From Variovorax sp. 54 (lineage in GTDB: Bacteria > Pseudomonadota > Gammaproteobacteria > Burkholderiales > Burkholderiaceae_C), in NCBI RefSeq assembly GCF_002754375.1, contig NZ_PEFF01000001.1, positions 5,411,501 through 5,475,500 on the forward strand: DNA of 64,000 nucleotides, written 5' to 3'. The notes beneath the pieces were generated by a model that had not been told where the DNA came from, ran no database searches, and saw only the letters and a program-made list of their open reading frames with translations. Of this stretch, positions 13,977 through 30,432 are shown piece after piece. The position numbers and the translations under genes are program-made. Numbering within the stretch: the first letter of the stretch is position 1; each line of letters starts with the position of its first letter.

Positions 13977-14759
13977 TCAGGCCCTGCGCTTGAACAGCGC
14001 GGACGCGCCGCTGGCCCGCGCCACGTCGTCCGCCGCGGCCAGCAGCTGCGGGCCCAGTGCGAGCATGCGTTCTTCCGTGAGCCGCACCAGCGGCCCCGCG
14101 ATGGTGATGACGCCGATCACGCCGCCGTGCGCACCGCGCACCGGCGCGGCCATGGCGGTCATGGCGGGGGAGAACACTTCGTTGATCATCGAGAAGCCGC
14201 GCTTGCGCGTGGCGCGCAGGAACACGAGCAGCGCCTTCATGGTGGTCGGCGCCTTGGGGCCGAAATCTTCCGGCTGGCCGAAGCCTTGCTTCGCGACGAG
14301 TTGCAGCGCCTGTTCGTCCGTCATGGTCGACAGCCACGCGTGGCCCGCGGAGCTGCACGAGAGGTTCACCGACAGGCCCATGTCCGGGTCGTAGCGCAGC
14401 CCGCGCGTGGCGCCTTGCGCCTTCGCGACGAAGGTGAGTTCGTCGCCGTCGACCACCGCCAGCCGCACCAGCTCGCCCGATGCGACCGCGAGCCGATCGA
14501 GCAGCGGCTGCGCCACATCGACGATGCCGCTGTTGCTCAAGAAGCTCAGGCCCAGCGACACCAGCTTGATGGTCAGCATGTAGTCGCCATGGCTCTGGTC
14601 TTGCCGCACATAGCCGCAACGCACCAGTTCACTCAGCAGGCGATGGGTGGCGCTCAAGGGCATTTCCAGCTCGGCAGACAGCGCGGAAAGCGCGCGGCCC
14701 TCGGGGTGGCCGGAGAGGTGTTCAAGCACCTTGAAGCTGCGTTCGAGTATGGCTGTCAT
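13977..14759 (-). CDS. IclR-family transcriptional regulator (copy 1)
   Basis: The product has 260 residues, the normal IclR length. The N-terminal winged helix-turn-helix is seen in ILERSFKVLEHL and MPLSATHRLLSELV. The C-terminal effector domain carries the family's GFSMINEVFSPAMTAMAAPV stretch. It is divergent from the TRAP receptor gene at 14901 and shares a 141-base intergenic region with it, the usual arrangement for an IclR protein controlling the neighbour. By eye it is about 70 percent identical to the second IclR at 28578. IclR proteins often sense aromatic or hydroaromatic acids; the effector here is unknown. Confidence 0.9.
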   Translation of the reverse strand: MTAILERSFKVLEHLSGHPEGRALSALSAELEMPLSATHRLLSELVRCGYVRQDQSHGDYMLTIKLVSLGLSFLSNSGIVDVAQPLLDRLAVASGELVRLAVVDGDELTFVAKAQGATRGLRYDPDMGLSVNLSCSSAGHAWLSTMTDEQALQLVAKQGFGQPEDFGPKAPTTMKALLVFLRATRKRGFSMINEVFSPAMTAMAAPVRGAHGGVIGVITIAGPLVRLTEERMLALGPQLLAAADDVARASGASALFKRRA

Positions 14760-14900
14760 GAGACGACTCTAGCATTTTGCCAAGTGTTTTCACTAGTAGA
14801 AAGATTTTCCACTAAATCGATAAGATCGCGCCGTCTGGGGTCGGAGGCGCTTCTTGGCGCCCCGGCATGGATCGCTCACATCGCAAGCTGGAGAACAACT
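14760..14900. promoter_or_regulatory. Shared control region between iclR copy 1 and dctP copy 1
   Basis: This is a 141-base divergent spacer, AT-richer than its surroundings near the regulator. It holds the near-palindrome TTTCACTAGTAGAAA (14788-14802, centred on ACTAGT) and, just after it, a related ATTTTCCACTAAAT stretch (14804-14817). These are candidate IclR operator half-sites. The exact promoter elements are not clear by eye. Confidence 0.4.
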
Positions 14901-15908
14901 TTGAGAACGCTTTACCGCTCGCTGGCCACCGCCGGCCTCGCCCTCGCCCTGGTCGTTCCTGCTGTTGCGCAAGCGCAGCAGGAGCGCGTGATCCGCTTCG
15001 GCCATCTGAACAACGCCGACCATCCCGTGAGCTTCGGCGTCAAGCGCTTTGCCGAGCTGCTCTCGGCCAAGAGCGGCGGCAAGATGAAGGTGCAGGAGTT
15101 CCCCGCTTCGCAACTGGGCAATGAGATGCAGCAGCAGTCGGCCCTGCAGGGCGGCGTGCAGCAGATGTCGGCGCCGGCCACCACGTCACTGGCAGGCATC
15201 GTCAAGGAGTTCGGCCTCGTCGACTTCCCCTTCTCGGTGAACAACTTCGCGCAGGCCGATGCACTGCTCGACGGCCCGCTCGGTCAGGCGCTGATCGCCA
15301 GGCTCCCGGAGAAGGGCCTCGTCGCCTTGGGCTACTGGGATCTGGGCTTTCGCAACGTCACCAACAGCAAGCGCCCCATCGCCAAGCCTGAAGACCTCGA
15401 AGGTTTGAAGATCCGCGTGATCCCCAACCCCGTGTTCCTGGAGACCTTCAAGGCCTTCAAGGCCAACCCGGTGCCGATGCCGTTCGCCGAGCTGTACGGT
15501 GCGCTCGAAGCCAAGGCAGTGGACGGTCAGGAGAACCCGTACGCGGTGATCCTGTCGAACAAGTTCTACGAAGTGCAGAAGTTCGTGAGTGCCACGAACC
15601 ACGTGTACGCCGCCAACATCGTGCTGGTGAGCAAGAAGTTCTGGGACTCGCTCACGCCCGCCGAACAGAAGATGATGAACGACGCGGCCAACGAGGCACG
15701 CGGCTACCAGCGGCAAGTCAGCCGTGCGGCTGCGCAGAAGGCCGTGGGCGAACTGCAGGCCAAGGGCGCGCAGTTCAACGAACTCTCTGCTGCTGAGCAG
15801 AAGCGCATGCGCGACATCGCCAAGCCCGTCATCGACAAGTTCGCCGCCCAGTACGACCCCGCCATCGTCAAGCTCTACAACGACGAGCTCGTGCGCATCC
15901 GCAAGTAG
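14901..15908 (+). CDS. dctP: TRAP transporter solute-binding receptor, DctP family (copy 1)
   Basis: The product is 335 residues from a TTG start, chosen because GGAGA precedes it at a proper distance and because it gives a complete signal peptide ending PAVAQA. It is the periplasmic receptor that delivers an organic acid to a DctQM permease. Family signatures include ALGYWDLGFRNVTNSKRP and LKIRVIPNPVF, where the Arg of the second motif normally binds the substrate carboxylate. The mature part differs from the receptor at 27377-28375 at only six positions, while the signal peptides are unrelated. No dctQM lies next to this copy, so it probably shares the permease at 25035-26878. Confidence 0.92.
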   Translation: MRTLYRSLATAGLALALVVPAVAQAQQERVIRFGHLNNADHPVSFGVKRFAELLSAKSGGKMKVQEFPASQLGNEMQQQSALQGGVQQMSAPATTSLAGIVKEFGLVDFPFSVNNFAQADALLDGPLGQALIARLPEKGLVALGYWDLGFRNVTNSKRPIAKPEDLEGLKIRVIPNPVFLETFKAFKANPVPMPFAELYGALEAKAVDGQENPYAVILSNKFYEVQKFVSATNHVYAANIVLVSKKFWDSLTPAEQKMMNDAANEARGYQRQVSRAAAQKAVGELQAKGAQFNELSAAEQKRMRDIAKPVIDKFAAQYDPAIVKLYNDELVRIRK

Positions 15909-16063
15909 CGCGCCCCCACGGCTGACGAGGAATTCCTTCTTCGTTCTCGCCGGCAATTTCCGTCACTCCCACGTCTGCGCCTGCCGCCACCCGCGGCGCA
16001 GCGACACGTGCTGGGCGCGTGCGCCCGTTCGATTCCGCCATTGACCACAAAGAGGAGACTCCG

Positions 16064-17125
16064 TTGACACATTCCAGATCCTTTCCCTTCGGACTTGCAT
16101 CGGCCGCCGCGCTCGCGCTGGCATTGACTGCCTGCGGCGGAGGCGACGGCGGCGGAGGCGCGGCCTTGCCGTTCCTGCCCGTGGCGCCCGCGCCCGCTGC
16201 CTCGGCACCGCCGCCCGCACCGACCGACGAAGTGCCGCCGCCCACCGACCCGGTGGCCGAGGTCGACGACAGCTTCGACACGTACTACAACGTGTGCCGC
16301 GGCACCAACCCCAAGTGCTACAACGACTGGGGCGCCTTTGCCACCACGCCCGACCGCGTGCTGATCTACTCGCGCACCGCGGGCCCGCGCCATGCCGTGC
16401 TCGGCACGCCGATGGCGGCCGGCCTGAACCCCGCGATGAACCCCGACAACGTGATGCAGGCCGGCCTCGTGCGCATGCTGTCGGCCGAGGGCATCACGGT
16501 CGACTGGACCGAAGACGTGGCCATCCTCAGCGGCCGTATCAACAACTACAAGGCGATCATCTTCGCGAGCTCGAACCGCGACACCTTGTGGAACGGCGCC
16601 GTGAGCACCAGCCAGGACGCCGCGCGCACCGCGCTGCGCAACTACATGCGCCGCGGCGGCGGCTTCGTGGGCCTGCACAACGCCTTCGGTGCCGAATACA
16701 ACTGGCCGTACTACGAAGGCCTGCTGGGCAACGCGAACTTCTACAACCACGGGCCGAACCGCGGGGGCGATGTCGAGATCGTCTCGGACGACCCCTCGAC
16801 GAAGGACGTGCCCAAGCGCTTCTCGTTCCAGGACGAGTGGTACAACCTGATGCCCTTCCCGACGAAGGTGAAGTTCCTGGCCAAGGTCGACACCTCGACG
16901 CTGAAGCCGCTCACCTCCGCGCCGCATCCCGGCCACGCCGACTTCCATCCGGTCGCGTGGTGCCAGTACTACGACGGCGGCCGTGCCTGGCTCTCGACCC
17001 TCGGGCACAACGCGCACTCGTTCACCGCCGACCTGTCGGGCGTGGGCGCCATCGAGTTCCAGAAGCTCGTCGTGCAAGGCGTGAAGTCGGCGATGGGCCT
17101 GACACCTTTCTGCACCACTGAATAA
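16064..17125 (+). CDS. ThuA-like domain lipoprotein
   Basis: The product is 353 residues from TTG 16064, preceded by GAGGAG at good spacing. The first residues give a short lipoprotein signal with lipobox LTAC (Cys24), then a Gly stretch and a Pro/Ala linker. The rest matches the ThuA-like class I amidotransferase-like fold: VLIYSRTAGPRHAVLG near the start, GGGFVGLHNAF in the middle, and HPVAWCQYYDGGRAWLSTLG towards the end. ThuA-like domains occur with sugar and polyol oxidation systems; the reaction of this branch is not established. The linker closely resembles that of the PQQ dehydrogenase 91 bases downstream, which suggests the two are surface partners in one operon. Confidence 0.75.
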   Translation: MTHSRSFPFGLASAAALALALTACGGGDGGGGAALPFLPVAPAPAASAPPPAPTDEVPPPTDPVAEVDDSFDTYYNVCRGTNPKCYNDWGAFATTPDRVLIYSRTAGPRHAVLGTPMAAGLNPAMNPDNVMQAGLVRMLSAEGITVDWTEDVAILSGRINNYKAIIFASSNRDTLWNGAVSTSQDAARTALRNYMRRGGGFVGLHNAFGAEYNWPYYEGLLGNANFYNHGPNRGGDVEIVSDDPSTKDVPKRFSFQDEWYNLMPFPTKVKFLAKVDTSTLKPLTSAPHPGHADFHPVAWCQYYDGGRAWLSTLGHNAHSFTADLSGVGAIEFQKLVVQGVKSAMGLTPFCTTE

Positions 17126-17216
17126 CCGCGACTCCGCGGGGCCAGTGCCGCGCCGTGTGCGCGCCACCGGTCGTTTCGAACACCCCTGTTCCAACGTTCA
17201 CCGAGTAGAGACATCC

Positions 17217-19442
17217 ATGAAGAAAAAATCATTGGTCACGCTGCTGATCTCGTGCGGCGTGCTCGCATCGCCGTTGCTGATCACCGCCTGCGGCGGCTCC
17301 AGCAGCGGTGGCGGCACACCTGTGCTGCCCGTGGCGCCAGCGCCCGCGCCGCCGCCGTCGGCCGACGCACCGCCACCCGCATCGCCACCCGCAGCCGTCG
17401 CACCTGCGTCCGATCTGTCGGACTGCTGCACCGCCGGCGACAAGGACTTCCCGAAGGTCGGCGGCAACCTGGGCAACCAGAACTATTCGAGCCTGCGCAA
17501 GATCAACAAGGGCCTCGTCACGCAACTCGGTGGCGCCTGGGTCAACCAGATCGAAGGCGGCATGACCACCGGCAACAACCAGAGCACCACCGTCGTCGTC
17601 GACGGCGTGCTCTACATCGAGTCGGCGCCCGGCAACGTGGTCGCGGTGGACGGCAAGACCGGCGTGACGAAGTGGAAGTGGACCACGCCCTACGGCGGCA
17701 TCACCCGCCGCGGCGTGGCCGTCGCGAAAGACCTGGGCCTGGTGTTCACCGTCGCCACCGGCAACCGCCTCGTCGCGCTACGCACCGACACCGGCGCCGT
17801 CGAGTGGATCAAGCAGTACCCGACCAGCAGCACCGACCCCGACTACAAGGGCGCGCTGCAGAAGGTCGCGTTGGTCTATCACGACAAGCGCCTCTACCTG
17901 GGCACCAACGACGGCAACCGCGGCGCCGCGTTCTCGGCCGACGCGCTCACCGGCAAGGTGCTGACCACGTTCTGGGGCGTGCCCCGCGCGGGCGAGCTGG
18001 GCTACGACACCTGGGGCGGCGCGCCCGACGCGGCACGCACCGGTGCCACGCCGTGGATCCATCCCGCGGTCGATCCCGAGCTGGGCCTGGTGTACTGGAC
18101 CTTCGGCAACGTGCGCGGCGGTTCGTCGCAAGACGGTTCCTCGCGCCCGGGCCAGAACCTGTTCGCCAATTCCATCGTCGCGCTCGACCTCAAGAGCGGC
18201 GAGTACAAGTGGCACTTCCAGTCGGTGCACCACGACATCTGGGACATGGACAACGTGATGTCGCCCGTGCTCGCCGACGTGAAGATCGACGGCAAGGACC
18301 GCAAGGTCGTCATCTACGGCAGCAAGACGGGCATGTACTACATCCTCGATCGCAAGGACGGCACTGCGCCGCTGGGCATCGACGAAGTGCCCGTGAAGCA
18401 GGATGCCCGCCAGGCCAGCTGGCCCACGCAGCCGCTGCCGCGCCAGGGCGCCTGGACCGAGACCTGCATCGTCGACCAGCCGCTGGGCACGGCCATTCCG
18501 GGCGACCCGAACCGCGCGGTGCCCAACTACACCAAGGGCTGCCTGTACGACGCGCACTGGGACGTGCCGATCCTGTCCATTCCGGGCCACGGCGGCGGTG
18601 CCAACTGGAACCACCAGTCGTTCAGCCAGCGCACGGGCCTGGTCTACACGGGCATGGGCTACGTGTCGGCGGCACACTCGCTCAGCGAGTCGAGCAACGG
18701 CCTGCGCCCGCCGGGCACCTACATGACCGGCGCGGTCGTGGCGGTCGATCCGAGCACCAACCTTGTCAAGTGGAAGAAGCCGCTGCCGTACTCGGTGGCG
18801 CACGGCAACGGCATCCTGAGCACGGCCTCCGACCTGTTGTTCATCGGGCAGCCCGACGGCAACCTGCTGGCGCTCGATGCGCAGGACGGCACCGAGCTGT
18901 GGCGCTTCCAGACCGGCGCGGCGATCAGCGCGAGCCCGGTCTCCTACGAGATCGACGGCGAGCAGTACATCGCGGTGTTCTCGGGCGGCACCAGCATTCC
19001 GTACGGCGACTCGGCACCGCGCGGCGACCGGCTGTGGGCCTTCAAGGTCGGCGGCGCGGTGACCGCGGCTGCCACGCCGACACCGCCCGTGGTGCGGCGG
19101 CCCGTGTCGGGCGCGGCGGTGGAGGGCGCGGCACTGCCGACGCCGAACACCGTGTTCCTGGCGCGCGTGCAAACGCCGACGAACGAGCCCGGCGCGACCG
19201 AGTCGACGGCCGTGAATGCGATGACGCCGACCTTCATGCGCGTGCCGGTGAACACCGTCGTGACCTTCACGAACCCGGCCACCAATGCCAACACGCATTG
19301 CGCCACGCAGTTCTTCGAAGGCCGCTTCAATCTGAGGCTGACCCCGGGCCAGTCGCAGACCCACACCTTTGACACGCCGGGCGAATACTTTTACAACGAC
19401 TGCCATAGCCCGCGTCCGACGGGAAAGATCGTCGTTTATTGA
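17217..19442 (+). CDS. PQQ-dependent dehydrogenase lipoprotein with C-terminal cupredoxin-like domain
   Basis: The product has 741 residues. Lipobox ITAC (Cys25) is followed by a Pro/Ala linker, then a PQQ beta-propeller with repeated W-motif blades such as GVTKWKWTTPYGG, GEYKWHFQSVHHDIWDMD and GTELWRFQTGAAISASPV. The HHDIWDMD segment resembles the active-site Asp region of glucose/quinate-type PQQ dehydrogenases. There is no CxxCH haem motif. The last 100 residues instead form a cupredoxin-like domain with NTHCATQFFEG and FYNDCHSPRPTGK, where one His and an adjacent Cys-His are present but the usual CxxHxxxxM spacing and Met are missing. The gene is 36 bases upstream of pqqA, so enzyme and cofactor synthesis are probably linked. 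Substrate is unproven. Confidence 0.85.
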   Translation: MKKKSLVTLLISCGVLASPLLITACGGSSSGGGTPVLPVAPAPAPPPSADAPPPASPPAAVAPASDLSDCCTAGDKDFPKVGGNLGNQNYSSLRKINKGLVTQLGGAWVNQIEGGMTTGNNQSTTVVVDGVLYIESAPGNVVAVDGKTGVTKWKWTTPYGGITRRGVAVAKDLGLVFTVATGNRLVALRTDTGAVEWIKQYPTSSTDPDYKGALQKVALVYHDKRLYLGTNDGNRGAAFSADALTGKVLTTFWGVPRAGELGYDTWGGAPDAARTGATPWIHPAVDPELGLVYWTFGNVRGGSSQDGSSRPGQNLFANSIVALDLKSGEYKWHFQSVHHDIWDMDNVMSPVLADVKIDGKDRKVVIYGSKTGMYYILDRKDGTAPLGIDEVPVKQDARQASWPTQPLPRQGAWTETCIVDQPLGTAIPGDPNRAVPNYTKGCLYDAHWDVPILSIPGHGGGANWNHQSFSQRTGLVYTGMGYVSAAHSLSESSNGLRPPGTYMTGAVVAVDPSTNLVKWKKPLPYSVAHGNGILSTASDLLFIGQPDGNLLALDAQDGTELWRFQTGAAISASPVSYEIDGEQYIAVFSGGTSIPYGDSAPRGDRLWAFKVGGAVTAAATPTPPVVRRPVSGAAVEGAALPTPNTVFLARVQTPTNEPGATESTAVNAMTPTFMRVPVNTVVTFTNPATNANTHCATQFFEGRFNLRLTPGQSQTHTFDTPGEYFYNDCHSPRPTGKIVVY

Positions 19443-19478
19443 TATGTCCCTCAACCCCAACCCTGAAGGAGCAATGCG

Positions 19479-19553
19479 ATGAAGTGGTGCAAGCCTGAGT
19501 TTGAAGAAATGCGTTTCGGTTTCGAAATCACGATGTACATTTCCGCGCGCTGA
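19479..19553 (+). CDS. pqqA: PqqA, precursor peptide of pyrroloquinoline quinone
   Basis: The product is a 24-residue peptide starting MKWCKPEFEEMRFG and ending ITMYISAR. Glu16 and Tyr20 are spaced E-x-x-x-Y, the pair that PqqE cross-links and from which PQQ is built. AAGGAG (19466-19471) sits 7 bases before the ATG. The gene lies 36 bases after the PQQ dehydrogenase and is followed at once by a strong hairpin, then pqqB. This is the normal PqqA form with no sign of damage. Confidence 0.97.
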   Translation: MKWCKPEFEEMRFGFEITMYISAR

Positions 19554-19567
19554 GCGCGGCCCCCACA

Positions 19568-19599
19568 CGGCACCGGCCTCGCGCCGGTGCCGTTTTTTT
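19568..19599 (+). terminator. Hairpin plus T-tract between pqqA and pqqB
   Basis: A perfect 10-bp stem CGGCACCGGC / GCCGGTGCCG (19568-19577 and 19583-19592) with a 5-base loop is followed by seven T. It looks like a rho-independent terminator, yet it sits inside the pqq gene set 12 bases before pqqB. Partial read-through would give more pqqA peptide transcript than transcript for the enzymes, which fits the stoichiometry of a peptide substrate. Confidence 0.88.
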
Positions 19600-19610
19600 G
19601 TTGGGCCCCC

Positions 19611-20531
19611 ATGAAGATTCTGGTGCTGGGTTCGGGAGCGGGCGGTGGCTTCCCTCAATGGAATTGCAATTGCCGTCTGTGCGCCGGCCAGCGAAGCGGG
19701 CAGGTGCGGGCCACGCCCCGCACGCAGAGTTCGATCGCGGTGTCGGCCGACGGCGAACGCTGGATCTTGCTGAACGCTTCCCCCGACCTCGGCGCGCAAC
19801 TGCGCGCCTCGCCGGCCCTGTGGCCGCGTCACGGACTGCGCCATTCGCCGATCGAGGCAGTGGTGCTGATGGACTCTCAAATCGACCACGTCGCAGGCCT
19901 GCTGAGCCTGCGTGAAGGGCAGCGGTTGCAGCTGTACTGCACGCCCGAGGCGCATGACGACCTCAGCGGCAGCCTGCCGCTGCTGCGCACGCTCGAGAGC
20001 TACTGCGGCGTGACCTGGCACCCGTTGTCGCTCGAGCGTGGCGGTGGTGCCTGGCATGACATCGCCGGCCTGCGGCTGCAGGCACTGCCGGTGCCCGGCA
20101 AGGCACCACCGTATTCGCCGCGCCGCCAGACCGAGGCGCGCAGCGAGAACGCCGCGGTGCTCATCGAAGACCCCGCCACCGGCAAGCGCGTGCTCTATGC
20201 GCCGGGCCTGGCACAGGTCGGCGAGGCCGAGCGCCGCAGCCTCGATGCCTGCGACTGCGTGCTCGTCGACGGCACCTTCTGGACCGAAGACGAGATGGTC
20301 GCGGCCGGCCTCGGCAAGAAGCACGCGGCCGACATGGGCCACCTGCCGCAATGCGACGGGCCGCATGGCCCCGGCATGCTGCAGGCGCTCGACGCTTGCG
20401 CTGCACAACGCAAGGTGCTCATCCACATCAACAACAGCAACCCCATCCTGGACGAAGACGGGCCGGAGCGCGCACAGCTCGTGCGCCGCGGCATCGAGGT
20501 CGCATTCGACGGCATGGCCCTGGAGATCTGA
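19611..20531 (+). CDS. pqqB: PqqB, PQQ biosynthesis metallo-hydrolase-fold protein
   Basis: The product is 306 residues from ATG 19611 ([20 protein letters not shown]), the hallmark PqqB start; the frame runs further upstream but through the terminator. The Gly-rich start, [11 protein letters not shown] and the [15 protein letters not shown] segments are typical of this metallo-beta-lactamase-fold family. PqqB is thought to hydroxylate the cross-linked Glu-Tyr intermediate before PqqC acts. It ends 4 bases before the GTG of pqqC. Confidence 0.96.
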
Positions 20532-20535
20532 AAAC

Positions 20536-21273
20536 GTGACAGCAGACAAACAAGACCCGTGGTCCCCGGAAGAGTTCGAAGCGAGGCTGCGCGCCATGGA
20601 GTCGCGCTACCACAGCCACCACCCGTTCAACCGGCGGCTCAATGCGGGCGAGCTGCAGCCCTTCCAGGTGCGCGGCTGGGTGGCAAACCGCTTCTACTAC
20701 CAGTGCCGCATTCCGGTGAAGGACGCCGCCGTGCTGTCGAACTGCGACGACCGCGCGACGCGCCGGCGCTGGGTGGTGCGCATGCTCGACCACGACGGGC
20801 ATGGCGACCATGAAGGCGCCAACGCGGGCGGCATCGAGATATGGACCCGGCTCGGCATTGCCACCGGCCTGGCGCGCGAGGTGCTCGAGTCGCATGCGCT
20901 CGTGGTGCCCGGCGTGCGCTTCGCGGTCGATGCGTATGTCAACTTCGCGCGCACGGCGCCGTGGCAGGAGGCGGTGATTTCGTCGCTCACCGAGATGTTC
21001 GCGCCGCGCATCCACAAGGACCGGCTTGCGGGATGGCCCACGCACTACCCGTGGATCGACACCTCGAGCCTGGACTACTTTCGCAGCCGTATTCCGCTGG
21101 CCGACCGGGACGTCGAGCACGGCCTCGAAGTGGCGATGCAGTGGTGCACCACGCGCGAGCGGCAGCAGCGTGCGCTGCACATCCTGGGCTTCAAGCTCGA
21201 CATCCTCTGGGCCCTGCTCGACGCGATCGAGAAGGCTTATCCCGACGACCTTCCGAAAGAACAGCAGCCATGA
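20536..21273 (+). CDS. pqqC: PqqC, pyrroloquinoline-quinone synthase
   Basis: The product is 245 residues from GTG 20536. It catalyses the last step, ring closure and oxidation of the intermediate to PQQ, without cofactor. The conserved [13 protein letters not shown] and [11 protein letters not shown] segments that line the active site are intact, as are [16 protein letters not shown] and the length. The gene overlaps pqqD by four bases (ATGA), so translation is probably coupled. Confidence 0.96.
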
Positions 21274-21539
21274 CCGCATGGACCGACGATGCCCAGCCGG
21301 CGCTCACCTCGATGTACCGCATGCAGTGGGAAGAGGCGCAGCAGTGCCACGTGCTGCTGTTCCCCGAGGGCATGATCAAGCTCAACGGGCCGGCGGCCGA
21401 GATCCTTCAGCGCTGCGACGGCAAGACCTCGGTGGCCGCGCTCGTGGCCGACCTGGAGCACACCTTCGGCGAGAGCGACCTGCACGCCGACGTGCTCGAA
21501 TTTCTGGAGCAGGCCCATGGACGCCACTGGGTCCGCTGA
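21270..21539 (+). CDS. pqqD: PqqD, PqqA peptide chaperone
   Basis: The product has 89 residues and reads [20 protein letters not shown] at the start. PqqD binds PqqA and presents it to the radical SAM enzyme PqqE. It contains the conserved [20 protein letters not shown] region and is a free-standing small protein, not fused to PqqC or PqqE as in some organisms. It overlaps pqqC by 4 bases and pqqE by 23 bases. Confidence 0.95.
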
Positions 21540-22686
21540 GCCGCAAACCGGCGCCACGGCCAAGCCGCCGCTGTGGCTGCTGGCCGAGCTGACCTACCGC
21601 TGCCCGCTGCACTGCGCCTTCTGCTCCAACCCGGTCGACTACACGCGCTACCGCGAAGAGCTGGACACGGCCGAATGGATTCGCGTGTTCCGCGAAGCAC
21701 GCGCGATGGGCGCGGTGCAGCTGGGCTTCTCGGGCGGCGAACCGCTGCTGCGCGACGACCTGCCCGAACTGGTCGCGGCGGCGCACGAGCTCGGCTTCTA
21801 TACCAACCTGATCACCTCGGGCGTGGGCCTCACGCCGCAGCGTGCCGAGACGTTGAAGCGCGCGGGGCTGGACCACATCCAGCTGTCGTTCCAGGACTCG
21901 AGCCGCGAGCTCAACGACTTCCTCAGCTCCACGAAGACCTTCGACCTCAAGCAGCGCGTGGCCCGCACCATCAAGGACCTCGGCTACCCGATGGTGCTGA
22001 ACTGCGTGATGCACCGCTACAACCTGCCGCACGTGGGCCGCATCATCGAGATGGCCGAGGCGATGGAGGCCGACTTTCTCGAACTCGCCAACGTGCAGTA
22101 CTACGGCTGGGCCTGGCGCAACCGCGAGATGCTGATGCCCTCGCGCGACATGCTGGCCACGGCCGAGGCGGTGGTGGAAACCCATCGCCCGCGCCTGGAC
22201 GGCCGCATGAAGATCCTCTGGGTGGTGCCCGACTACGCCGAGGGCAAGCCCAAGCCCTGCATGGCGGGGTGGGGCAGCGTGTTCCTCGTGGTCGCGCCCG
22301 ACGGCGTGGCGCTGCCGTGCCACAGCGCGCGCATGCTGCCCGGGCTCGACTTTCCCAATGTGCGCGAGCACAGCGTCCGCAGCATCTGGCAGGAGAGCCC
22401 GGCCTTCGGCGCCTACCGTGGCACGGGCTGGATGAGCAGCACCTGCCAGAGCTGCGACGAGAAGGAGAAGGACCACGGCGGCTGCCGCTGCCAGGCCTTC
22501 CTGCTGGCGGGCGATGCGGCGGCCACGGACCCGGTGTGCCCGAAGAGCCCGCGGCATGACGAGGTCGAGGCGATGGTCAAGGCGGCGGGTGATCCGCGCG
22601 ACCTCGGCACGCCGATCCGTTTCGTGCCGGGCGCGCGGCGTGCAGGCGACCTCGTCTTTCGCACCGACGCGAATGCATTGGGTTGA
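21517..22686 (+). CDS. pqqE: PqqE, radical SAM enzyme cross-linking PqqA Glu and Tyr
   Basis: The product has 389 residues. The radical SAM cluster motif CPLHCAFC (Cys29, Cys33, Cys36) is followed by GFSGGEPLLR. The C-terminal part has the SPASM-type Cys set (CHSARMLPG, CQSCDEKEKDHGGCRCQ) that binds auxiliary iron-sulfur clusters. It forms the first carbon-carbon bond between Glu and Tyr of PqqA. The ATG at 21517 lies inside the end of pqqD; the next in-frame signal would cut conserved sequence, so this start is kept. Confidence 0.96.
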   Translation: MDATGSAEPQTGATAKPPLWLLAELTYRCPLHCAFCSNPVDYTRYREELDTAEWIRVFREARAMGAVQLGFSGGEPLLRDDLPELVAAAHELGFYTNLITSGVGLTPQRAETLKRAGLDHIQLSFQDSSRELNDFLSSTKTFDLKQRVARTIKDLGYPMVLNCVMHRYNLPHVGRIIEMAEAMEADFLELANVQYYGWAWRNREMLMPSRDMLATAEAVVETHRPRLDGRMKILWVVPDYAEGKPKPCMAGWGSVFLVVAPDGVALPCHSARMLPGLDFPNVREHSVRSIWQESPAFGAYRGTGWMSSTCQSCDEKEKDHGGCRCQAFLLAGDAAATDPVCPKSPRHDEVEAMVKAAGDPRDLGTPIRFVPGARRAGDLVFRTDANALG

Positions 22687-22698
22687 GAAGGTGCCCCG

Positions 22699-23631
22699 AT
22701 GACGATCACCCATCGCCTGCCTCTGGACGGCGGGCATGTGATGCACGTCGAGGAGCACGGCAACCCGGCGGGCCTGCCCGTGGTGGTGCTGCATGGCGGA
22801 CCGGGCTCGGGCTGCTCGCCGCTGTTGCGTCGGGACTTCGATCCGGCGCACTACCGCATCGTCTGCCCCGACCAGCGCGGTTCGGGCCTCAGCACACCCA
22901 CAGGATCGATCGAACACAACACGCTCGCCGATCTGCTGGCCGACTTGCGTTGCCTGCGCGCGCACCTGCGCATCGACCGATGGCTGGTGGTGGGCGGCTC
23001 GTGGGGCGCCACGCTGGCGCTGATGCATGCGCTCGATGCACCCGAGGCCGTCGCGGGCCTGCTGCTGCGCAACGTGTTCCTCGCGCGCCAAAGCGATATC
23101 GATGCGCTCTTCGCCGGAGCCCTGCGGCACGACAGTCCCGCATGGCAAGAACTGTGGGACGAGGCCGAGCGCAGGCAATGCCCGGTGACGGTGCCGATCG
23201 CCGAGGTCTTCGCGCACGGCACCTGGGCGCGGCAGTGCGAGCTGACACGCTGCTGGTTCGATTGGGAACAGCGCCTCGCCACCGGCGGCGCTGCGCCGCC
23301 GATCGACGAAGCGATGCTGCCGCGGCTCGTGGCGCGGTACCGCGTGCAGAGCCACTACCTGCGGCATGGCTGTTGGCTCGGCGCACCCACGCTGCTGCAG
23401 CGCTGCGCCGCAATGCCTGTTGTGCCCACGCTGATCGTGCATGGCACGCAGGACGCGCTGTGTCCGCCCGAGGGCGCCCAGGCACTGGCGCAGGTGCTGG
23501 GCGCGCCGCTGCAGTGGGCGCAGGGCGCGGGCCACGACCCGACGCATCCGGCCATCGCCGCGGCCATGCAGCAGGCGCTGCGCGACTACGCGGCCACGCA
23601 GGCCTTCGGCGTCAGCGCAGCCGCGCCTTGA
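22699..23631 (+). CDS. Proline-iminopeptidase-like alpha/beta hydrolase (S33) at the end of the pqq operon
   Basis: The product has 310 residues. It shows the S33 pattern: HGGPGSG oxyanion loop, DQRGSGLS, nucleophile elbow GGSWGATLAL with Ser in the centre, and a late Asp and His (GTQDALCPPEGA, GAGHDPTHP). Enzymes of this family cleave N-terminal Pro or nearby residues from peptides. It starts 12 bases after pqqE with GAGAAGG before it, so it is likely in the same transcript. No pqqF-type protease is present in the window. A role in processing modified PqqA is an inference. Its end overlaps the convergent ELW-repeat gene by 20 bases. Confidence 0.85.
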   Translation: MTITHRLPLDGGHVMHVEEHGNPAGLPVVVLHGGPGSGCSPLLRRDFDPAHYRIVCPDQRGSGLSTPTGSIEHNTLADLLADLRCLRAHLRIDRWLVVGGSWGATLALMHALDAPEAVAGLLLRNVFLARQSDIDALFAGALRHDSPAWQELWDEAERRQCPVTVPIAEVFAHGTWARQCELTRCWFDWEQRLATGGAAPPIDEAMLPRLVARYRVQSHYLRHGCWLGAPTLLQRCAAMPVVPTLIVHGTQDALCPPEGAQALAQVLGAPLQWAQGAGHDPTHPAIAAAMQQALRDYAATQAFGVSAAAP

Positions 23632-25030
23632 GCGGATCGCCGATCAGTGTCACCTTGCCGTCCTTGCGATAGGACCACAGCCGGTCGTTGCCATGGCCGT
23701 CGTCGGCCACGAAGAGCACCGCATCGCCGAGCGCACGAAAGCCCAGCGGCATGGCGTGGCGTTCGTCCGCGGCAAGGTCGGCCACGGCGCGCGTGCCGGC
23801 CGGTGTGCCGTCGCTGGTCCAGGGCTCGACACCCCGGCCACCGCCGCCGTTCGCCGCGAACCACAGGCGCGAACCGATGACGGCGAAGCGCGCCGGCGAG
23901 CCGTTCTCTGCGCCCGGTGCGATGTCCTTCACGCGCACCGTGCCCGCTGCTGTGCCGTCGCTGCGCCACAGCTCCGCGCCCGACACGCCGTCGGTCGCGG
24001 CGAAGTAGAGCTTGCCGCTCATCACGGCGATCGCGCTCGACACGGAGCCGCTCGGTCCCGGCCGGATGTCCTTCACCAGCGCCGTGCCCTTCGCGGTGCC
24101 GTCGGTCTTCCACAGCTCGATGCCGTGCACGCCGTCGTCGGCCGAGAAGTACAGCGTGCGGCCCAGCACCGCCAGGTGCGCCGGCCGTGAGGGCGCGGCG
24201 CCGGGGCGCAGGTCTTTCACCAGCTGCGTGCCGTGTTCGGTGCCGTCGCTCTTCCACAGCTCGGCGCCGTGCTCGCCGTCGTGCGCGGTGAAGTAGACGT
24301 CGTTGCCCACGGCCGTGAGGTTCTGGATGCCCGCGTCCTCGAGGCCCGGGCGGATGTCCTTCACCAGGCGCGTGTGCTCGGGCGTGCCGTCGGTCACCCA
24401 GAGCTCGTGGCCCTGCGTGCGCGTGGTCGCGGTGAAAAACAGGCGCGGGCCGGCGACGGTGAGCTGGCGGGTGAGGGCGCGCGGCCCGGCGTCGACGGCG
24501 GACACGCGCGTGGTGCCCTTCGCATCGCCCGTGGTCTTCCACACCTGGAAGCCGGTCTGGCCGTCGTCGGCCACGAAGTAGAGCGCGTCGCGGAACACCG
24601 TCAGCTCGTTGGGCATCGACCCTTCCTCGCCGGGGCGCAGGTCGATCACCTGCGCCGTGCCGGCGGCGGTGCCGTCGGTGCGCCACAGTTCCAGCCCGCT
24701 CGCGCCGTCGGTGGCCGTGGTGTAGACGTGGCCCTTGAACGCAACCTGACCGGCAGGGAACGACCCCCGAAAGCCGGGCCTTATGTCTTTCAACAAGGTC
24801 GTGCCGGCGTTGCTGCCGTCGGTGACCCACAGCTCCTGGCCGGTCGCGACATGGAAGGCGCTGAACACCATCTTGCCGCTGCCCAGCGGCGCGAGGCCGG
24901 AGGGCGCGATGAAGGCCAGCCGCTGGCGCTGCTCGGGCAGCACCTCGCGCTCGGGGTCTTGCGCAAGGTCTTGTGCAGCGGCAGGCAGGGCCGCGAGCAG
25001 GGCGAGCACGGCGAGGCAAAGGGTGCGCAC
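23612..25030 (-). CDS. Exported ELW-repeat (beta-propeller-like) protein
   Basis: The product is 472 residues from a GTG start with a signal peptide ending PAAAQ. About eight repeats of roughly 48 residues follow, each with the core G-x-ELW-x-TDGT-x-x-GT and then VKDIRPG, for example GIELWKTDGTAKGTALVKDI. The final one is degenerate. Such repeats are found in extracellular or periplasmic proteins and suggest a beta-propeller; no catalytic residues are evident. The GTG is 4 bases after the dctM stop, so it is almost certainly the last gene of the dctP-aroQ-dctQ-dctM operon. Its role with a TRAP transporter is unknown to me. Confidence 0.8.
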   Translation of the reverse strand: MRTLCLAVLALLAALPAAAQDLAQDPEREVLPEQRQRLAFIAPSGLAPLGSGKMVFSAFHVATGQELWVTDGSNAGTTLLKDIRPGFRGSFPAGQVAFKGHVYTTATDGASGLELWRTDGTAAGTAQVIDLRPGEEGSMPNELTVFRDALYFVADDGQTGFQVWKTTGDAKGTTRVSAVDAGPRALTRQLTVAGPRLFFTATTRTQGHELWVTDGTPEHTRLVKDIRPGLEDAGIQNLTAVGNDVYFTAHDGEHGAELWKSDGTEHGTQLVKDLRPGAAPSRPAHLAVLGRTLYFSADDGVHGIELWKTDGTAKGTALVKDIRPGPSGSVSSAIAVMSGKLYFAATDGVSGAELWRSDGTAAGTVRVKDIAPGAENGSPARFAVIGSRLWFAANGGGGRGVEPWTSDGTPAGTRAVADLAADERHAMPLGFRALGDAVLFVADDGHGNDRLWSYRKDGKVTLIGDPLKARLR

Positions 25031-25034
25031 CGGC

Positions 25035-26315
25035 TCAGCCCCCGAACCACCGCGCCGGCACGATCACCAGCTGCGGAAACGCCACCATCACGAACAGGAT
25101 CGCGAACTCGGCCAGCATGAACGGCACCACGCCGCGCGTGACGTCGTCCATCGAGATCTTGCCGACGCCGGCCACCACGTTGAGCACCGTGCCCACCGGC
25201 GGCGTGACGAGGCCGATCGAGTTGTTGATGATGAACAGCACGCCGAAGTACACGGGGTCGATGCCGGCCGCCTTCACCACCGGCATGAGCACCGGCGTGA
25301 GGATAAGGATGGTCGGCGTCATGTCCATCGCCGTGCCCACCACCATCACGAGCACCATGATCGCGATCATGAGCAGCATCTGGTTGCCCATGAACGGCTC
25401 CAGCATGCCCACGATCTTCGAGGGCAGGTCGGCCACCGTGATGAGCCAGGCGCTCACCATGGCCGCGGCGATCAGGAACATCACGATGGCGCTGGTCTTG
25501 GCCGCATTCACGAAGATGGCGTACAGGTCGCGCCAGGTGATCTCGCGGTACACCACCGTCGACACGAAGAGCGCGTACACGGCGGCCACCACCGCGGCCT
25601 CGGTGGGCGTGAACACGCCCATGCGCAGGCCCACGAGAATGATCACCGGCAGCATCAGCGCCCACAGCGCGTTGCGGAAGGCGGCGGCAATTTCGGCCGA
25701 CGACTTGCGCGGCGGCGGCACGATTTTTTCGCGCCGCACCAGCCAGGCCCAGGTGATCCACAGCGCGCCGCCGATCAGCAGGCCCGGCACGATGGCCGCG
25801 AGAAACAGCTTGGAGATCGACACGTTGGCCGCCACGCCGAAGATCACCAAGCCGATGCTCGGCGGGATCACGGGGCCGATCACGCCGGTGGCCGCAATGA
25901 GGCCGGCCGCGCGCGGCTTGTCGTGGCCCGCGCGCACCATCATCGGCAGCAGCAGCGCGGTGAGCGCGGCGGCGTCGGCCACGGCCGAACCCGAGAGCGC
26001 CGACAGCAGGCAGCCCGCCATGATGGTCACGTAGCCCAGGCCGCCCTTCACATGGCCGACGAGCGCGAGCGCGAAGTCGACGATGCGCTTGGACAGCCCG
26101 CCCACGTTCATGATCTCGCCCGCGAGCATGAAGAAGGGCACGGCCAGCAGCGGAAAGCTGTCGGCGCCGCCGATCACGTTCTGCGTGAGGATCTGCGCGT
26201 CGAACAGGTCGAGGTGCCACATCAGTGCGACACCGCTGGCCAGCAGCGAGAAGGCGATGGGAATGCCCATCGCCATGGCAAGCAACAGCGAGCCGACGAA
26301 AACAACGATGGTCAT
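25035..26315 (-). CDS. dctM: TRAP transporter large permease, DctM family
   Basis: The product has 426 residues and about 12 hydrophobic segments. It is the ion-coupled transport subunit of a tripartite TRAP carrier. The family start MTIVVFVGSLLLAMAMGIPI, the PFFMLAGEIMN segment and GLVTPPVGTVLNVVAGVG are clear. It overlaps dctQ by 4 bases (ATGA), and is followed after 4 bases by the ELW-repeat gene. Cargo is not readable from sequence; the aroQ gene inside the operon points to a hydroaromatic acid. Confidence 0.94.
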   Translation of the reverse strand: MTIVVFVGSLLLAMAMGIPIAFSLLASGVALMWHLDLFDAQILTQNVIGGADSFPLLAVPFFMLAGEIMNVGGLSKRIVDFALALVGHVKGGLGYVTIMAGCLLSALSGSAVADAAALTALLLPMMVRAGHDKPRAAGLIAATGVIGPVIPPSIGLVIFGVAANVSISKLFLAAIVPGLLIGGALWITWAWLVRREKIVPPPRKSSAEIAAAFRNALWALMLPVIILVGLRMGVFTPTEAAVVAAVYALFVSTVVYREITWRDLYAIFVNAAKTSAIVMFLIAAAMVSAWLITVADLPSKIVGMLEPFMGNQMLLMIAIMVLVMVVGTAMDMTPTILILTPVLMPVVKAAGIDPVYFGVLFIINNSIGLVTPPVGTVLNVVAGVGKISMDDVTRGVVPFMLAEFAILFVMVAFPQLVIVPARWFGG

Positions 26316-26878
26316 GGCCGTGCCCCCGGTTCCTTGGCGTCCTGCGAACCCAGGATCTGCTGCAGCTGCACCGCTTCTTCCGACTCCTGCACCATCACCA
26401 GCTCATGGTCGGCGATGCGGCCCGTGAGCAGGCGCAGCAGGTCGAGCGCCAGGATGAGTCCGGCCAGCACCGAGAACACGATGCCCGAGGCGTAGACGAT
26501 GGCCATCGACGCGCCGGTGACGGGCGCCGTCACGTCCCAGTTGATGCGCGCCTGCGCGATGCTGCCCTGCAGCAGCAGCCAGACGATGTAGAGCATGACC
26601 ACATGGCCGACGGCCAGGCAGATCTTCTTGCCGATGGGGGGCAGCTTCTGCACCACCATGTCGACACCCAGGTGGCCGTGCTCCTTCAGCGCCACCACGG
26701 CGCCCAGGAAGGTCATCCAGATGAAGAGCCAGCGCGAGATTTCCTCGGACACCGTGATGCCCGAGTTGAAACCGTAGCGCAGCACCACGTTGCCGAACAC
26801 GAGCACGACCATGACCGCGAGCGCGGTCGCGATCAGCGCCTCGATGCCGGTGCAGCACCGGTCGAGCCAGCGGGTCAT
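26312..26878 (-). CDS. dctQ: TRAP transporter small permease, DctQ family
   Basis: The product is 188 residues from ATG 26878. Four membrane segments and the conserved EEISRWLFIWMTFLGAVVAL stretch identify the small TRAP membrane subunit that links the receptor to DctM. The start overlaps the aroQ stop by 4 bases, and its stop overlaps the dctM start by 4 bases, so all three are translationally coupled. The C-terminus carries an unusual 30-residue polar, Glu/Gln-rich tail. Confidence 0.93.
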   Translation of the reverse strand: MTRWLDRCCTGIEALIATALAVMVVLVFGNVVLRYGFNSGITVSEEISRWLFIWMTFLGAVVALKEHGHLGVDMVVQKLPPIGKKICLAVGHVVMLYIVWLLLQGSIAQARINWDVTAPVTGASMAIVYASGIVFSVLAGLILALDLLRLLTGRIADHELVMVQESEEAVQLQQILGSQDAKEPGARP

Positions 26879-27336
26879 GCCGCGGCCTGTGCTTGCGCCT
26901 GCGCCTGGCGCTGCATGTCGACCAGCGCGCGCAACGCGGCCAGGTACGACAGCGGGCCCAGGCCCTGGACCGTGCCCTTCACCGCCGGCGAGATGATCGA
27001 ATGCGCGCGCCATGCCTCGCGCGCGGCGATGTTGGACATGTGGACCTCGATGGTCGGGAACGGCATGGCCTTGATCGCGTCGTGCAGCGGCACGCCGTGC
27101 TGCGTGAGGCCGGCGGGGTTCACCAGTGCGCCTTGCGCATCGTCGATATGGGTGTGCAGGAAGTCGATCAGGTCGCCTTCGTGGTTCGACTGGATGGTTT
27201 CGAGCGTCACGCCGAGTTCGACGGCGAGCGCCTGCAGCTGCGCGTTGATTTCGGCGAGCGTGGTCTTGCCGTAGATGTGGGGTTCGCGGCGACCGAACAG
27301 GTTGAGGTTGGGGCCGTGGAGAACGAGGATCTTCAT
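26875..27336 (-). CDS. aroQ: Type II 3-dehydroquinate dehydratase inside a TRAP operon
   Basis: The product is 153 residues from ATG 27336 (MKILVLHGPNLNLFGRREP). It interconverts 3-dehydroquinate and 3-dehydroshikimate. The type II active-site words are present: NLNLFGRREPHIYG with the catalytic Arg and Tyr, QSNHEGDLID, and HMSNIAAREAWRAHS with the catalytic His. It ends in a QAQAQAQ-rich tail. It lies between dctP and dctQ, with a 40-base gap to dctP and a 4-base overlap with dctQ. This placement suggests a catabolic (QuiB-like) rather than biosynthetic role, though the sequence alone does not separate them. Confidence 0.92.
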   Translation of the reverse strand: MKILVLHGPNLNLFGRREPHIYGKTTLAEINAQLQALAVELGVTLETIQSNHEGDLIDFLHTHIDDAQGALVNPAGLTQHGVPLHDAIKAMPFPTIEVHMSNIAAREAWRAHSIISPAVKGTVQGLGPLSYLAALRALVDMQRQAQAQAQAAA

Positions 27337-27376
27337 GGGGAGCTTCGGTGAGGGACTGACTGGCTTGCTGACTTGT

Positions 27377-28375
27377 TTACTTGCGGATGCGTGCGAGCTC
27401 GTCGTTGTAGAGCTTGACGATGGCGGGGTCGTACTGGGCGGCGAACTTGTCGATGACGGGCTTGGCGATCTCGCGCATGCGCTTCTGCTCGGGCGCACTG
27501 AGTTCGTTGAACTGCGCGCCCTTGGCCTGCAGGTCGCCCACGGCCTTCTGTGCGGCGGCGCGGCTCACCTGCCGCTGGTAACCGCGTGCCTCGTTGGCCG
27601 CGTCGTTCATCATCTTCTGCTCGGCCGGCGTGAGCGAGTCCCAGAACTTCTTGCTCACCAGCACGATGTTGGCTGCGTACACGTGGTTTGTGGCGCTGAC
27701 GAACTTCTGCACTTCGTAGAACTTGTTCGACAGGATCACCGCATACGGGTTCTCCTGGCCATCGACCGCCTTGGCTTCGAGGGCACCGTACAGCTCGGCG
27801 AAAGGCATCGGCACCGGGTTGGCCTTGAAGGCCTTGAAGGTCTCCAGGAACACGGGGTTGGGGATCACGCGGATCTTCAAGCCTTCGAGGTCTTCAGGCT
27901 TGGTGATCGGGCGCTTGCTGTTGGTGACGTTGCGAAAGCCCAGATCCCAGTAGCCCAAGGCGACGAGGCCCTTCTCCGGGAGCTTGGCGATCAGCGCCTG
28001 GCCGAGTGGTCCATCGAGCAGTGCATCGGCCTGCGCGAAGTTGTTCACCGAGAAGGGAAAGTCGACCAGGCCGAACTCCTTGACGATGCCGGCGAGCGAT
28101 GTGGTGGCCGGTGCCGACATCTGCTGCACGCCGCCCTGCAGGGCCGACTGCTGCTGCATCTCGTTGCCCAGCTGCGAAGCAGGGAACTCCTGCACCTTCA
28201 TCTTGCCGCCGCTCTTGGCCGAGAGCAGCTCGGCAAAGCGCTTGACGCCGAAGCTCACGGGATGGTCGGCGTTGTTCAGGTGGCCGAAGCGGATCACGCG
28301 CTCCTGCTGCGCCCACGACGGGGCGGTGAGACCGGCGCACAGGCCGGCCACGGCAAGCATACGAAGAAGTTTCAC
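27377..28375 (-). CDS. dctP: TRAP transporter solute-binding receptor, DctP family (copy 2)
   Basis: The product has 332 residues with a signal peptide ending APSWA, then QQERVIRFGHLNNADHPV. It heads the operon dctP-aroQ-dctQ-dctM-ELW and is divergent from iclR copy 2. Its mature region is nearly the same as copy 1 at 14901, with substitutions only at R/K, A/T, E/D, A/P, D/E and V/A. DNA similarity starts at the mature N-terminus and stops at the stop codon (TAA here, TAG in copy 1). That pattern fits gene conversion or a recent coding-only copy. Confidence 0.93.
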   Translation of the reverse strand: MKLLRMLAVAGLCAGLTAPSWAQQERVIRFGHLNNADHPVSFGVKRFAELLSAKSGGKMKVQEFPASQLGNEMQQQSALQGGVQQMSAPATTSLAGIVKEFGLVDFPFSVNNFAQADALLDGPLGQALIAKLPEKGLVALGYWDLGFRNVTNSKRPITKPEDLEGLKIRVIPNPVFLETFKAFKANPVPMPFAELYGALEAKAVDGQENPYAVILSNKFYEVQKFVSATNHVYAANIVLVSKKFWDSLTPAEQKMMNDAANEARGYQRQVSRAAAQKAVGDLQAKGAQFNELSAPEQKRMREIAKPVIDKFAAQYDPAIVKLYNDELARIRK

Positions 28376-28475
28376 GAAGGGTCCTCAGGCGGGAAGGAAG
28401 AAAAAGGGGAAGAAGGAGGGAACAGAGGGGAAGAAAAAATGCAGGACGGAGGCGATCGTATTTTTGTTGGAAAGA

Positions 28476-28492
28476 ATTTCCATAATGGAAAT
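28476..28492. promoter_or_regulatory. Perfect palindrome, candidate IclR operator
   Basis: ATTTCCATAATGGAAAT is a perfect 7-3-7 palindrome in the 202-base spacer between divergent dctP copy 2 and iclR copy 2. A further GGAAAGAATTTCC overlaps its left side, so two overlapping dyads exist. Its place and symmetry suit an IclR dimer site controlling one or both genes. Confidence 0.55.
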
Positions 28493-28577
28493 CCCTTCCC
28501 CGAGTTCTGATACGCTGGCGACCCACGAGCGGCGGGCCTCATCGCCCGCGTTGACGAGACGACACCCGGAGGACGAA

Positions 28578-29360
28578 ATGAGCGGAATACTGGAACGCAG
28601 CTTCAAGGTGCTGGAACATCTGGCGGAGCATCCCGAGGGGTGCGCGCTGTCGGCGTTGGCCAGCGAATTGCAGATTCCATTGAGTGCATCGCACCGATTG
28701 CTTGCGGAGCTCATCCGCTGCGGCTACGTGCGGCAAGAGGCGCGCGACGGCCACTACGTGCTGACCATCAAGCTGGTGTCGATCAGCCTGTCGTTCCTCA
28801 GCCGCTCGGGCATCGTCGACATCGCGCAGCCGTTGCTCGACCAGCTGGCCTCGACCTCGGGCGAGCTCGTGCGCCTGGCGGTGGTCGACGGTGAAGACCT
28901 GACCTTCGTCGCCAAGGCGCAGGGCGCCACGCACGGCCTGCGCTACGACCCCGACATGGGCTTGTCGGTGGCGCTCTCGTGCAGCGCGGCCGGGCACGCG
29001 TGGCTGTCCACCATGGGCGAAGACGACGCGATGGCGCTCGTCGCCAAGAAGGGGCTGGGCAAGCCCGAGGACTTCGGCCCCAAGGCACCGACCTCGCTCA
29101 AGGCCGTGATGGCTTTCGTGAAGGCGGCGCGCCAGCGCGGCTTCAGCATGATCAACGAGGTGTTCGCTCCCGCGATGACCGCCATGGCCGCGCCCGTGTT
29201 CGGCGCCGACGGCACGGCAATCGGGGTCGTCACCATCGCGGGCCCGTCGGTGCGGCTCACGCCGCAACGCATGGAAGCGCTCGGGCCGGCGCTGTGCCAG
29301 GCCGCCGAAGAGGTGGCGCGCGCCAGCGGGGCCTCGGCGTTGTTCAAGAAGAGGGCGTAG
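28578..29360 (+). CDS. IclR-family transcriptional regulator (copy 2)
   Basis: The product is 260 residues from ATG 28578 with GGAGGA just upstream. HTH segment ILERSFKVLEHLAEHPEG and IPLSASHRLLAELI; effector domain with GFSMINEVFAPAMTAMAAPV. It is the paralogue of the regulator at 13977 and sits in the mirrored position beside the near-identical dctP. The two regulators have diverged far more than their dctP neighbours, which argues for old duplication plus recent exchange between the dctP genes. A third dctP follows 45 bases downstream and is probably co-transcribed. Confidence 0.9.
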   Translation: MSGILERSFKVLEHLAEHPEGCALSALASELQIPLSASHRLLAELIRCGYVRQEARDGHYVLTIKLVSISLSFLSRSGIVDIAQPLLDQLASTSGELVRLAVVDGEDLTFVAKAQGATHGLRYDPDMGLSVALSCSAAGHAWLSTMGEDDAMALVAKKGLGKPEDFGPKAPTSLKAVMAFVKAARQRGFSMINEVFAPAMTAMAAPVFGADGTAIGVVTIAGPSVRLTPQRMEALGPALCQAAEEVARASGASALFKKRA

Positions 29361-30425: not shown

Positions 30426-30432
30426 GCGCCGG

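Follow-up and report, generated by a model that had tools for sequence, protein, structure and literature searches.

Gene conversion as the probable cause of concerted evolution in two inverted TRAP receptor genes with regulators of different lineages in Variovorax

Introduction

How do two receptor genes stay nearly identical when the regulators that adjoin them belong to different lineages? The question is raised by a stretch of 64,000 nucleotides (nt) from Variovorax sp. 54 (assembly GCF_002754375.1, contig NZ_PEFF01000001.1, positions 5,411,501 to 5,475,500), hereafter the window. It holds two genes for solute receptors of the tripartite ATP-independent periplasmic (TRAP) type, dctP-L and dctP-R, each beside a divergent gene for an IclR-family regulator, iclR-L and iclR-R, respectively. 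An initial annotation of the window had offered two explanations, a slow phase switch by inversion or the relic of an old duplication kept alike by gene conversion. We propose that the mature parts of the two dctP genes have been homogenised by recurrent gene conversion between the inverted copies, while their regulatory modules stem from two lineages, and we give this reading a probability of about 0.88.

Results

The inverted receptor pair is a real feature of the window. dctP-L (14901..15908, + strand, with a TTG start at 14901 picked by eye) and dctP-R (27377..28375, - strand) carry the arms of an inverted repeat (I1), located by a repeat search at 14973..15907 (+) and 27378..28312 (-), 935 nt long, 95% complementary and spaced by 11,470 nt, in agreement with the mirror-oriented modules about 11.5 kb apart that had been described. 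The two iclR genes (iclR-L, 13977..14759, - strand; iclR-R, 28578..29360, + strand) make up a second repeat (I2) of 779 nt at 75%. The DNA-level alignment that the annotation had recommended gives sharp ends: in a global alignment, the dctP identity runs from the mature N-terminus AQQERVIRFGH, before which the cleavage site was judged by eye, to the stop codon. Beyond mature dctP and iclR there is no extended identity between the left and right sides, and the signal peptides and intergenic regions differ. The mature genes differ at 48 of 921 nt and at 6 residues, exactly the number of positions counted earlier. The regulators also differ, as had been stated, at about 25% of residues rather than roughly 30% (75.4% identity between the window's IclR-L and the IclR-R of genome G038, the latter protein being identical to the window's own). 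Divergence across dctP and iclR is accordingly not uniform, with identities of 95% and about 75%.

The window's genome comprises 6.64 Mb on a single contig, and its best match among the named genomes is V. boronicumulans NBRC 103145. The distribution of the pair was surveyed in 101 genomes of the genus Variovorax, with a dctP match threshold of 1e-150; at least one match was present in 50 of them. Five genomes have a close dctP pair with both copies assembled, namely the window's (G000), G038, G033, G076 and G079, the last being a draft with its copies on separate contigs, where the flanks show which is which. The resolved pairs are 94-95% identical. In genome G054, a second dctP with 77% identity is found on a different contig. 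Among named genomes, a scan also picked out contigs of 11.7-11.9 kb with both ends inside dctP in CC172, PgBe293 and Root473, and one in MEDvA23 that begins beside iclR-R. A whole-genome search of these four drafts (G101-G104) found the inner segment as a contig of its own in each (11,588-11,863 nt), with its two ends at the same dctP position, outer contigs that end in dctP, and 513-810 nt of the middle of dctP absent. An assembler leaves such breaks and a missing middle where two copies match; the four drafts are therefore best read as assembly collapse of the repeat, which implies dctP copies that are identical or nearly so. The pair is thus carried by nine Variovorax genomes, five with both copies assembled and four broken inside both dctPs; by contig number and coordinates, the four drafts are very likely G060, G074, G032 and G039 among the 101 genomes, so that about 9 of 101 would carry it. 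At 1e-160, no genome other than the window's gave two matches among 399 sampled from the family (the window's included, the five best candidates being scored in each). This search misses collapsed pairs, since that of Root473, if it is G032, gave no double match there.

Single-copy iclR-dctP loci are of two kinds according to the nearer regulator, A (iclR-L) or B (iclR-R), and each lineage occurs alone in other Comamonadaceae. Trees of mature dctP and of iclR were calculated for 64 loci out of 92 dctP matches. Omitted were four duplicate loci and 24 that lacked an adjacent divergent iclR or a recognisable mature start, or had fewer than 300 aligned residues; fragments from collapsed drafts were among these 24. 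In the iclR tree, the five L regulators, which group together at 83/84, share one clade with five A-type Variovorax loci (support 99/95), and the five R regulators (96/94) lie inside B (100/100). The mature dctP tree, by contrast, places all ten L and R copies in one group (100/99), beside the single-copy B genomes G050, G099, G086 and G093 (98/95), the deeper union with other B loci being weak (76/95). Within that group, the L and R copies pair by genome in G033 (100/92), G079 (90/92) and G076 (94/18, a weak value of the Shimodaira-Hasegawa-like approximate likelihood-ratio test). By the approximately unbiased (AU) test, neither an L clade (p 3e-5) nor an R clade (p 1.5e-6) is tenable for dctP, and a grouping of the L copies with the five A-type dctPs is likewise rejected (p 3e-9); for iclR, it is one clade of all copies that is rejected (p 1e-5). 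In several lineages, paralogues within a genome are hence closer to each other than orthologues, a pattern that is clear from one species group to the other and, for single genomes, in G033 and G079.

The point at which these two histories meet can be followed at diagnostic sites, defined as positions fixed differently between five A-type and four B-type loci. On the L side of the window, the A-like state is present at 64 of 73 sites in iclR, 14 of 15 in the intergenic region and 12 of 16 in the signal peptide, and at only 5 of 21 in mature dctP, where 8 of 21 sites are A-like in dctP-R itself. Similar counts apply to the remaining four L copies (60-66 of 73, 14-15 of 15, 12-13 of 16 and 7-9 of 21, respectively). 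The ancestry is demonstrably mixed: iclR-L, its promoter region and the signal peptide of dctP-L belong to lineage A, and mature dctP-L is homogenised with the R copy. The sites place the break in ancestry near the junction of signal peptide and mature part. The flanks thereby retain a locus-specific history, visible in the iclR tree, in the diagnostic sites and in the operators described below.

Divergence at synonymous sites (dS) separates the effects of recombination from those of protein constraint. Between L and R within a genome, dS is 0.21-0.30 in mature dctP (five of five genomes) and 0.72-0.74 in iclR (the four of five genomes where it could be computed), so homogenisation extends to synonymous sites and is limited to the homologous tract. 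The strong constraint on the receptor protein (nonsynonymous divergence, dN, of 0.004-0.011 between L and R) might suggest a simple recent tandem or inverted duplication of iclR-dctP, after which iclR diverged fast and purifying selection held dctP. Such selection would leave synonymous sites unhomogenised, nor could a fresh duplication produce regulators that fall in two clades; with the dS contrast and the separate positions of iclR-L and iclR-R, confirmed by the AU test, this explanation is extremely improbable, and duplication in place is ruled out by the iclR tree and that test. The simple form of the proposed relic of an old duplication falls with it, as the regulators, promoters and signal peptides derive from two separate older lineages. 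Site patterns over ten genome pairs, which are not independent of one another, include 47 locus-preserved and 41 crossed sites and so retain no memory of locus. Recurrent conversion limited by homology accounts both for the homogenised synonymous sites and for the two-clade regulators; signal peptides, promoters and regulators would stay different because conversion stops where homology stops. The suggestion that gene conversion keeps the two dctPs alike is borne out by the trees, the AU tests, the dS values and the collapsed drafts, and gene conversion between them is strongly supported by these sequence comparisons.

The promoters bear on what the exchange has left apart. A-type and B-type promoters have a common arrangement of TTTCC/GGAAA half-sites. 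Operator patterns were counted in 13 genomes, the nine with two copies and four single-copy B genomes; the single-copy B-type 110B (L012) and SP61_3 (L013) stand outside this genome-wide count. Each of the four single-copy B genomes contains the B-form pattern GATTTCCATNRTGGAAA exactly twice, once in the iclR-dctP gap and once upstream of the thuA match at a distance of about 0.2-0.3 kb. The nine two-copy genomes contain it exactly once each, with no thuA site remaining, and none of the 13 genomes matches the reversed control pattern. The sole match of the B form in the window's genome is the likely IclR-R operator, GATTTCCATTATGGAAA (28477..28493, - strand). Each of the nine two-copy genomes matches the L operator pattern exactly at one site, with the same 25 letters throughout; in the window, this is the likely IclR-L operator TTTTCACTAGTAGAAAGATTTTCCA (14787..14811, + strand), the only exact match in that genome. 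The L pattern is absent from the four single-copy B genomes even with up to three mismatches allowed, a setting at which the R site, too, is matched in G033 and G076. All nine L operators read TAGTAGAAA where the five A-type single-copy loci listed read TAGTGGAAA or TAATGGAAA; the half-site TAGTAGAAA is thus conserved and perhaps weakened.

Since the R operator is found twice per genome in the single-copy B relatives and once in the two-copy genomes, the ancestral IclR-R probably controlled both operons through predicted operator binding. The regulon would then apparently have been split between two regulators while the common receptor was kept uniform: IclR-L would probably control dctP, thuA and the pyrroloquinoline quinone (PQQ) dehydrogenase gene by predicted binding and read-through, and IclR-R would control dctP-aroQ-dctQ-dctM. 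No terminator-like site was found between dctP-L and thuA, in what is a weak test. In Ramlibacter pallidus, a single dctP immediately precedes thuA-dehydrogenase and is itself preceded by an operator-like site, an independent precedent for dctP-thuA coupling. Ramlibacter pallidus and a metagenome-assembled genome of Paracidovorax wautersii (L034:5185-14399 and L064:5790-11426) each present one visible dctP, differently placed relative to thuA and aroQ, and dctP seems to move between the thuA and aroQ operons. In the single-copy genomes G086 and G093 (L091, L094), thuA-dehydrogenase adjoins the gene of an ELW-repeat protein, and the cluster has no pqqB, pqqC or pqqE.

Several observations weigh against the proposal of recurrent conversion with split control. 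The dctP tree does not settle the pairing of L with R in G000 and G038, and that in G076 is weak; in G101, the outer contigs stop at different dctP positions, and the collapse is less clean. The L-R dS in G000, G038 and G079 (0.21-0.28) is higher than the values that most neighbouring genes show between G000 and G038 (0.06-0.25), the closest pair, which indicates that conversion has not been continuous in these three lineages. The operators and the read-through from dctP-L into thuA are predictions, and no promoter-like site was detected in the two short stretches scanned, even the R promoter region giving none, which deprives the scan of weight. In addition, dS between dctP orthologues in three close species pairs (0.22-0.32) is above that of most neighbours (0.06-0.21); pqqC and the ELW-repeat gene reach 0.21 in G000/G038, and the hydrolase-like gene, at 0.25-0.31, is as high as dctP.

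This last excess may stem from label-swapping between exchanging copies, in which case the divergence of orthologues is expected to equal about that of the neighbours plus half of the L-R divergence. For G000/G038, the mean dctP dS over the four pairings is 0.244, against an estimate of about 0.12 + 0.11; the other two close pairs, at 0.302 and 0.328, are somewhat above theirs. Imported dctP alleles, taken up from other strains at either locus, would also fit, incoming DNA being able to recombine with either copy, and could homogenise the copies in place of intrachromosomal conversion. The pairing of copies within the genome in G033 and G079 and the collapse of two copies within one genome in four drafts argue the other way, and we consider import unlikely as the main cause.

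Under the preferred reading of conversion between inverted copies, it can be hypothesised that an iclR-dctP module of lineage A came to lie before thuA in a B-lineage cluster, where it would have displaced the thuA promoter carrying the IclR-R operator. The mature dctP of this module would then have been overwritten by the B-type copy, the direction of this first conversion being the presumed one, and recombination between the inverted copies would have homogenised both dctPs repeatedly since. The outcome would be one receptor protein under two controls.

The same geometry suits inversion. Recombination between inverted repeats in Salmonella yields inversions as a by-product, which made up 5 of 59 recombinants in one study (PMC8262849) and nearly half of the events that were selected at a single position of tuf in another (PMC5485169); by analogy, inversions should arise at this locus too. 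Here the receptor genes serve as the repeats, so that after an inversion the operons downstream of them (aroQ-dctQ-dctM and thuA-PQQ dehydrogenase-pqq) would have changed places between the ends that supply regulator, promoter and signal peptide. The swap of control anticipated by the initial annotation would thus concern these operons, and the receptors would hardly change. An adaptive slow phase variation could then be imagined, in which a crossover within dctP flips 11.5 kb and brings the permease operon under IclR-L and the PQQ-dehydrogenase operon under IclR-R. In G000/G038, a run of eight crossed sites resembles what a double crossover would leave (p 0.044 by shuffling). It comes from one of ten pairs tested and fails correction, the number of runs is ordinary (p 0.465), and we do not accept it as such a footprint. 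The gene order, which was to be compared among relatives, gives no sign of flipping: all five readable genomes (the window's, G079, G033, G038 and G076) have the same isomer, iclR-L/dctP/thuA with iclR-R/dctP/aroQ. The alternative isomer does not occur among these five, the four drafts being broken exactly at dctP; it is the inverted layout itself that is conserved. No recombinase was seen, in the absence of a systematic search and with genes identified only in the 13.9-30.4 kb block. The phase switch consequently finds no support, and we regard it as very unlikely. A single isomer in all five genomes may reflect selection against the flipped form, or chance. A broader version seems to us just as doubtful: the pair would be a selected recombination hotspot, in which conversion keeps the receptor common to two operons and the unavoidable inversions serve as a slow regulatory switch, with the inverted isomer a minority of the population. 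If true, it would exchange which IclR drives oxidation and which drives uptake.

Discussion

Inverted copies that evolve in concert through gene conversion are already known, and the Variovorax pair adds a case with an informative regulatory twist. Work by Hughes in 2000 reportedly linked gene conversion with chromosomal inversion for the inversely oriented tufA and tufB of Salmonella. The two systems are alike in having two inversely oriented coding copies whose identity ends at the coding boundaries, homogenised by conversion with inversion as a by-product. The Variovorax dctPs differ in lying 11.5 kb apart within one metabolic cluster, in encoding a periplasmic receptor, in being 94-95% identical in the five resolved genomes, and in carrying regulators and signal peptides that differ in ancestry. 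For 26 prokaryotic genes, long-lasting concerted evolution has been described, in most cases for more than about 500 million years (PMC6053082). These cases resemble ours in that paralogues are more alike within a genome than to their orthologues and synonymous sites are homogenised, whereas the Variovorax pair is limited to one subgroup of a genus; the words "transporter", "promoter" and "inverted" do not occur in the main text of that study. Judging by titles, neither of the two papers found to name both Variovorax and gene conversion concerns this pair.

The locus is a natural and clean example of concerted evolution in a single coding segment whose attached promoters, signal peptides and regulators retain histories of their own that can be traced. 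It also offers a regulon that is apparently being split, with two operators per genome in four relatives, one here, and the second operon under another regulator. The nine genomes with the pair and the four close relatives without it make it possible to measure, in a soil bacterium, the rates of conversion and inversion and how far the flipped isomer is selected against.

As to function, the locus probably joins oxidation in the periplasm to TRAP uptake, with a receptor copy heading each predicted operon: the dehydrogenase, the pqq genes and the TRAP system fit a periplasmic oxidation followed by import of the resulting acid. The best structure matches of dctP-R are 4p47 and 7bbr, the latter second-best (1.6e-73); we take PDB 7bbr to be CxaP, the sugar-acid receptor of Advenella. 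Work by Meinert in 2017 and by Schaefer in 2021 (on CxaP) is said, as cited in PMC11574862, to describe periplasmic sugar oxidation and TRAP uptake in Advenella mimigardefordensis. Both clusters set periplasmic oxidation beside a TRAP transporter; unlike that of Advenella, the Variovorax cluster has additional aroQ-like, ThuA and ELW-repeat genes and two receptor copies. A quinate pathway was considered as the function and disfavoured, the dehydrogenase scoring far below the cut-off of the glucose/quinate/shikimate model TIGR03074 (177 against 833 bits). Its top NCBIfam match is "acido-empty-quinoprotein group A", below cut-off, despite the adjoining pqqA-E. The aroQ-like protein (26875..27336, - strand; PF01220, class II dehydroquinase) reads NPAGLTQHG at a site where class II dehydroquinases presumably have NPGAxTHTS, and a second AroQ-like match elsewhere in the genome is 49% identical to it; the cluster protein may act on another substrate.

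Other genes and surroundings of the locus

The block at 13.98-30.43 kb begins with iclR-L on the - strand, assigned by Pfam IclR_C/HTH_IclR as well as by its clade, and continues on the + strand with dctP-L, in which an A-lineage signal peptide is joined to the homogenised mature part. There follow a ThuA-domain, lipoprotein-like protein (16064..17125; PF06283, start picked by eye) and a PQQ-type dehydrogenase with a lipoprotein-like N-terminus (17217..19442; PF01011, every NCBIfam match under its cut-off). The pqqA peptide EFEEMRFGFEITMY (19479..19553) was read by eye, and pqqB, pqqC, pqqD and pqqE (19611..22686) were named by Pfam for pqqB (Lactamase_B_2) and pqqC (TENA/PQQC) and by eye for pqqD and pqqE, so that the PQQ-dehydrogenase and pqq region reported between the two modules is confirmed. 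An alpha/beta-hydrolase-like gene (22699..23631), named by eye from its translation, closes this half.

On the - strand of the right half lie the ELW-x-TDGT repeat protein (23612..25030), which has 144-nt repeats and is a frequent neighbour in B-type clusters, the large TRAP permease dctM (25035..26315; PF06808, TIGR00786 above cut-off), the small permease dctQ (26312..26878), the aroQ-like gene and dctP-R, the receptor of the TRAP operon (TIGR00787 above cut-off). dctQ is assigned by a YiaM-type NCBIfam match below cut-off (94.5 against 260 bits) and by position and, with DctP and DctM above their cut-offs, completes a DctP-QM set. The block ends on the + strand with iclR-R, placed in lineage B by alignment, neighbour comparison and the iclR tree, and with dctP3 (29406..30425; TIGR00787), a third, diverged receptor with 49% identity to dctP-R.

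To the left, a repetitive protein of 2409 residues with 360-nt repeats (6731-13960) ends 16 nt before iclR-L; its end is common to G079, and the 1.9 kb past iclR-L in G038 have no match to it. To the right of dctP3, about 7 kb (30426-37519; class III alcohol dehydrogenase-like and Rieske oxygenase-like genes and others, named by eye) are absent in G038, Root473 and G079, which reflects an insertion in the window's genome or a loss in the others. After dctP3, the sequences of G038 and Root473 join almost directly to about 37.52 kb of the window, and that of G079 joins after about 0.6 kb of other sequence.

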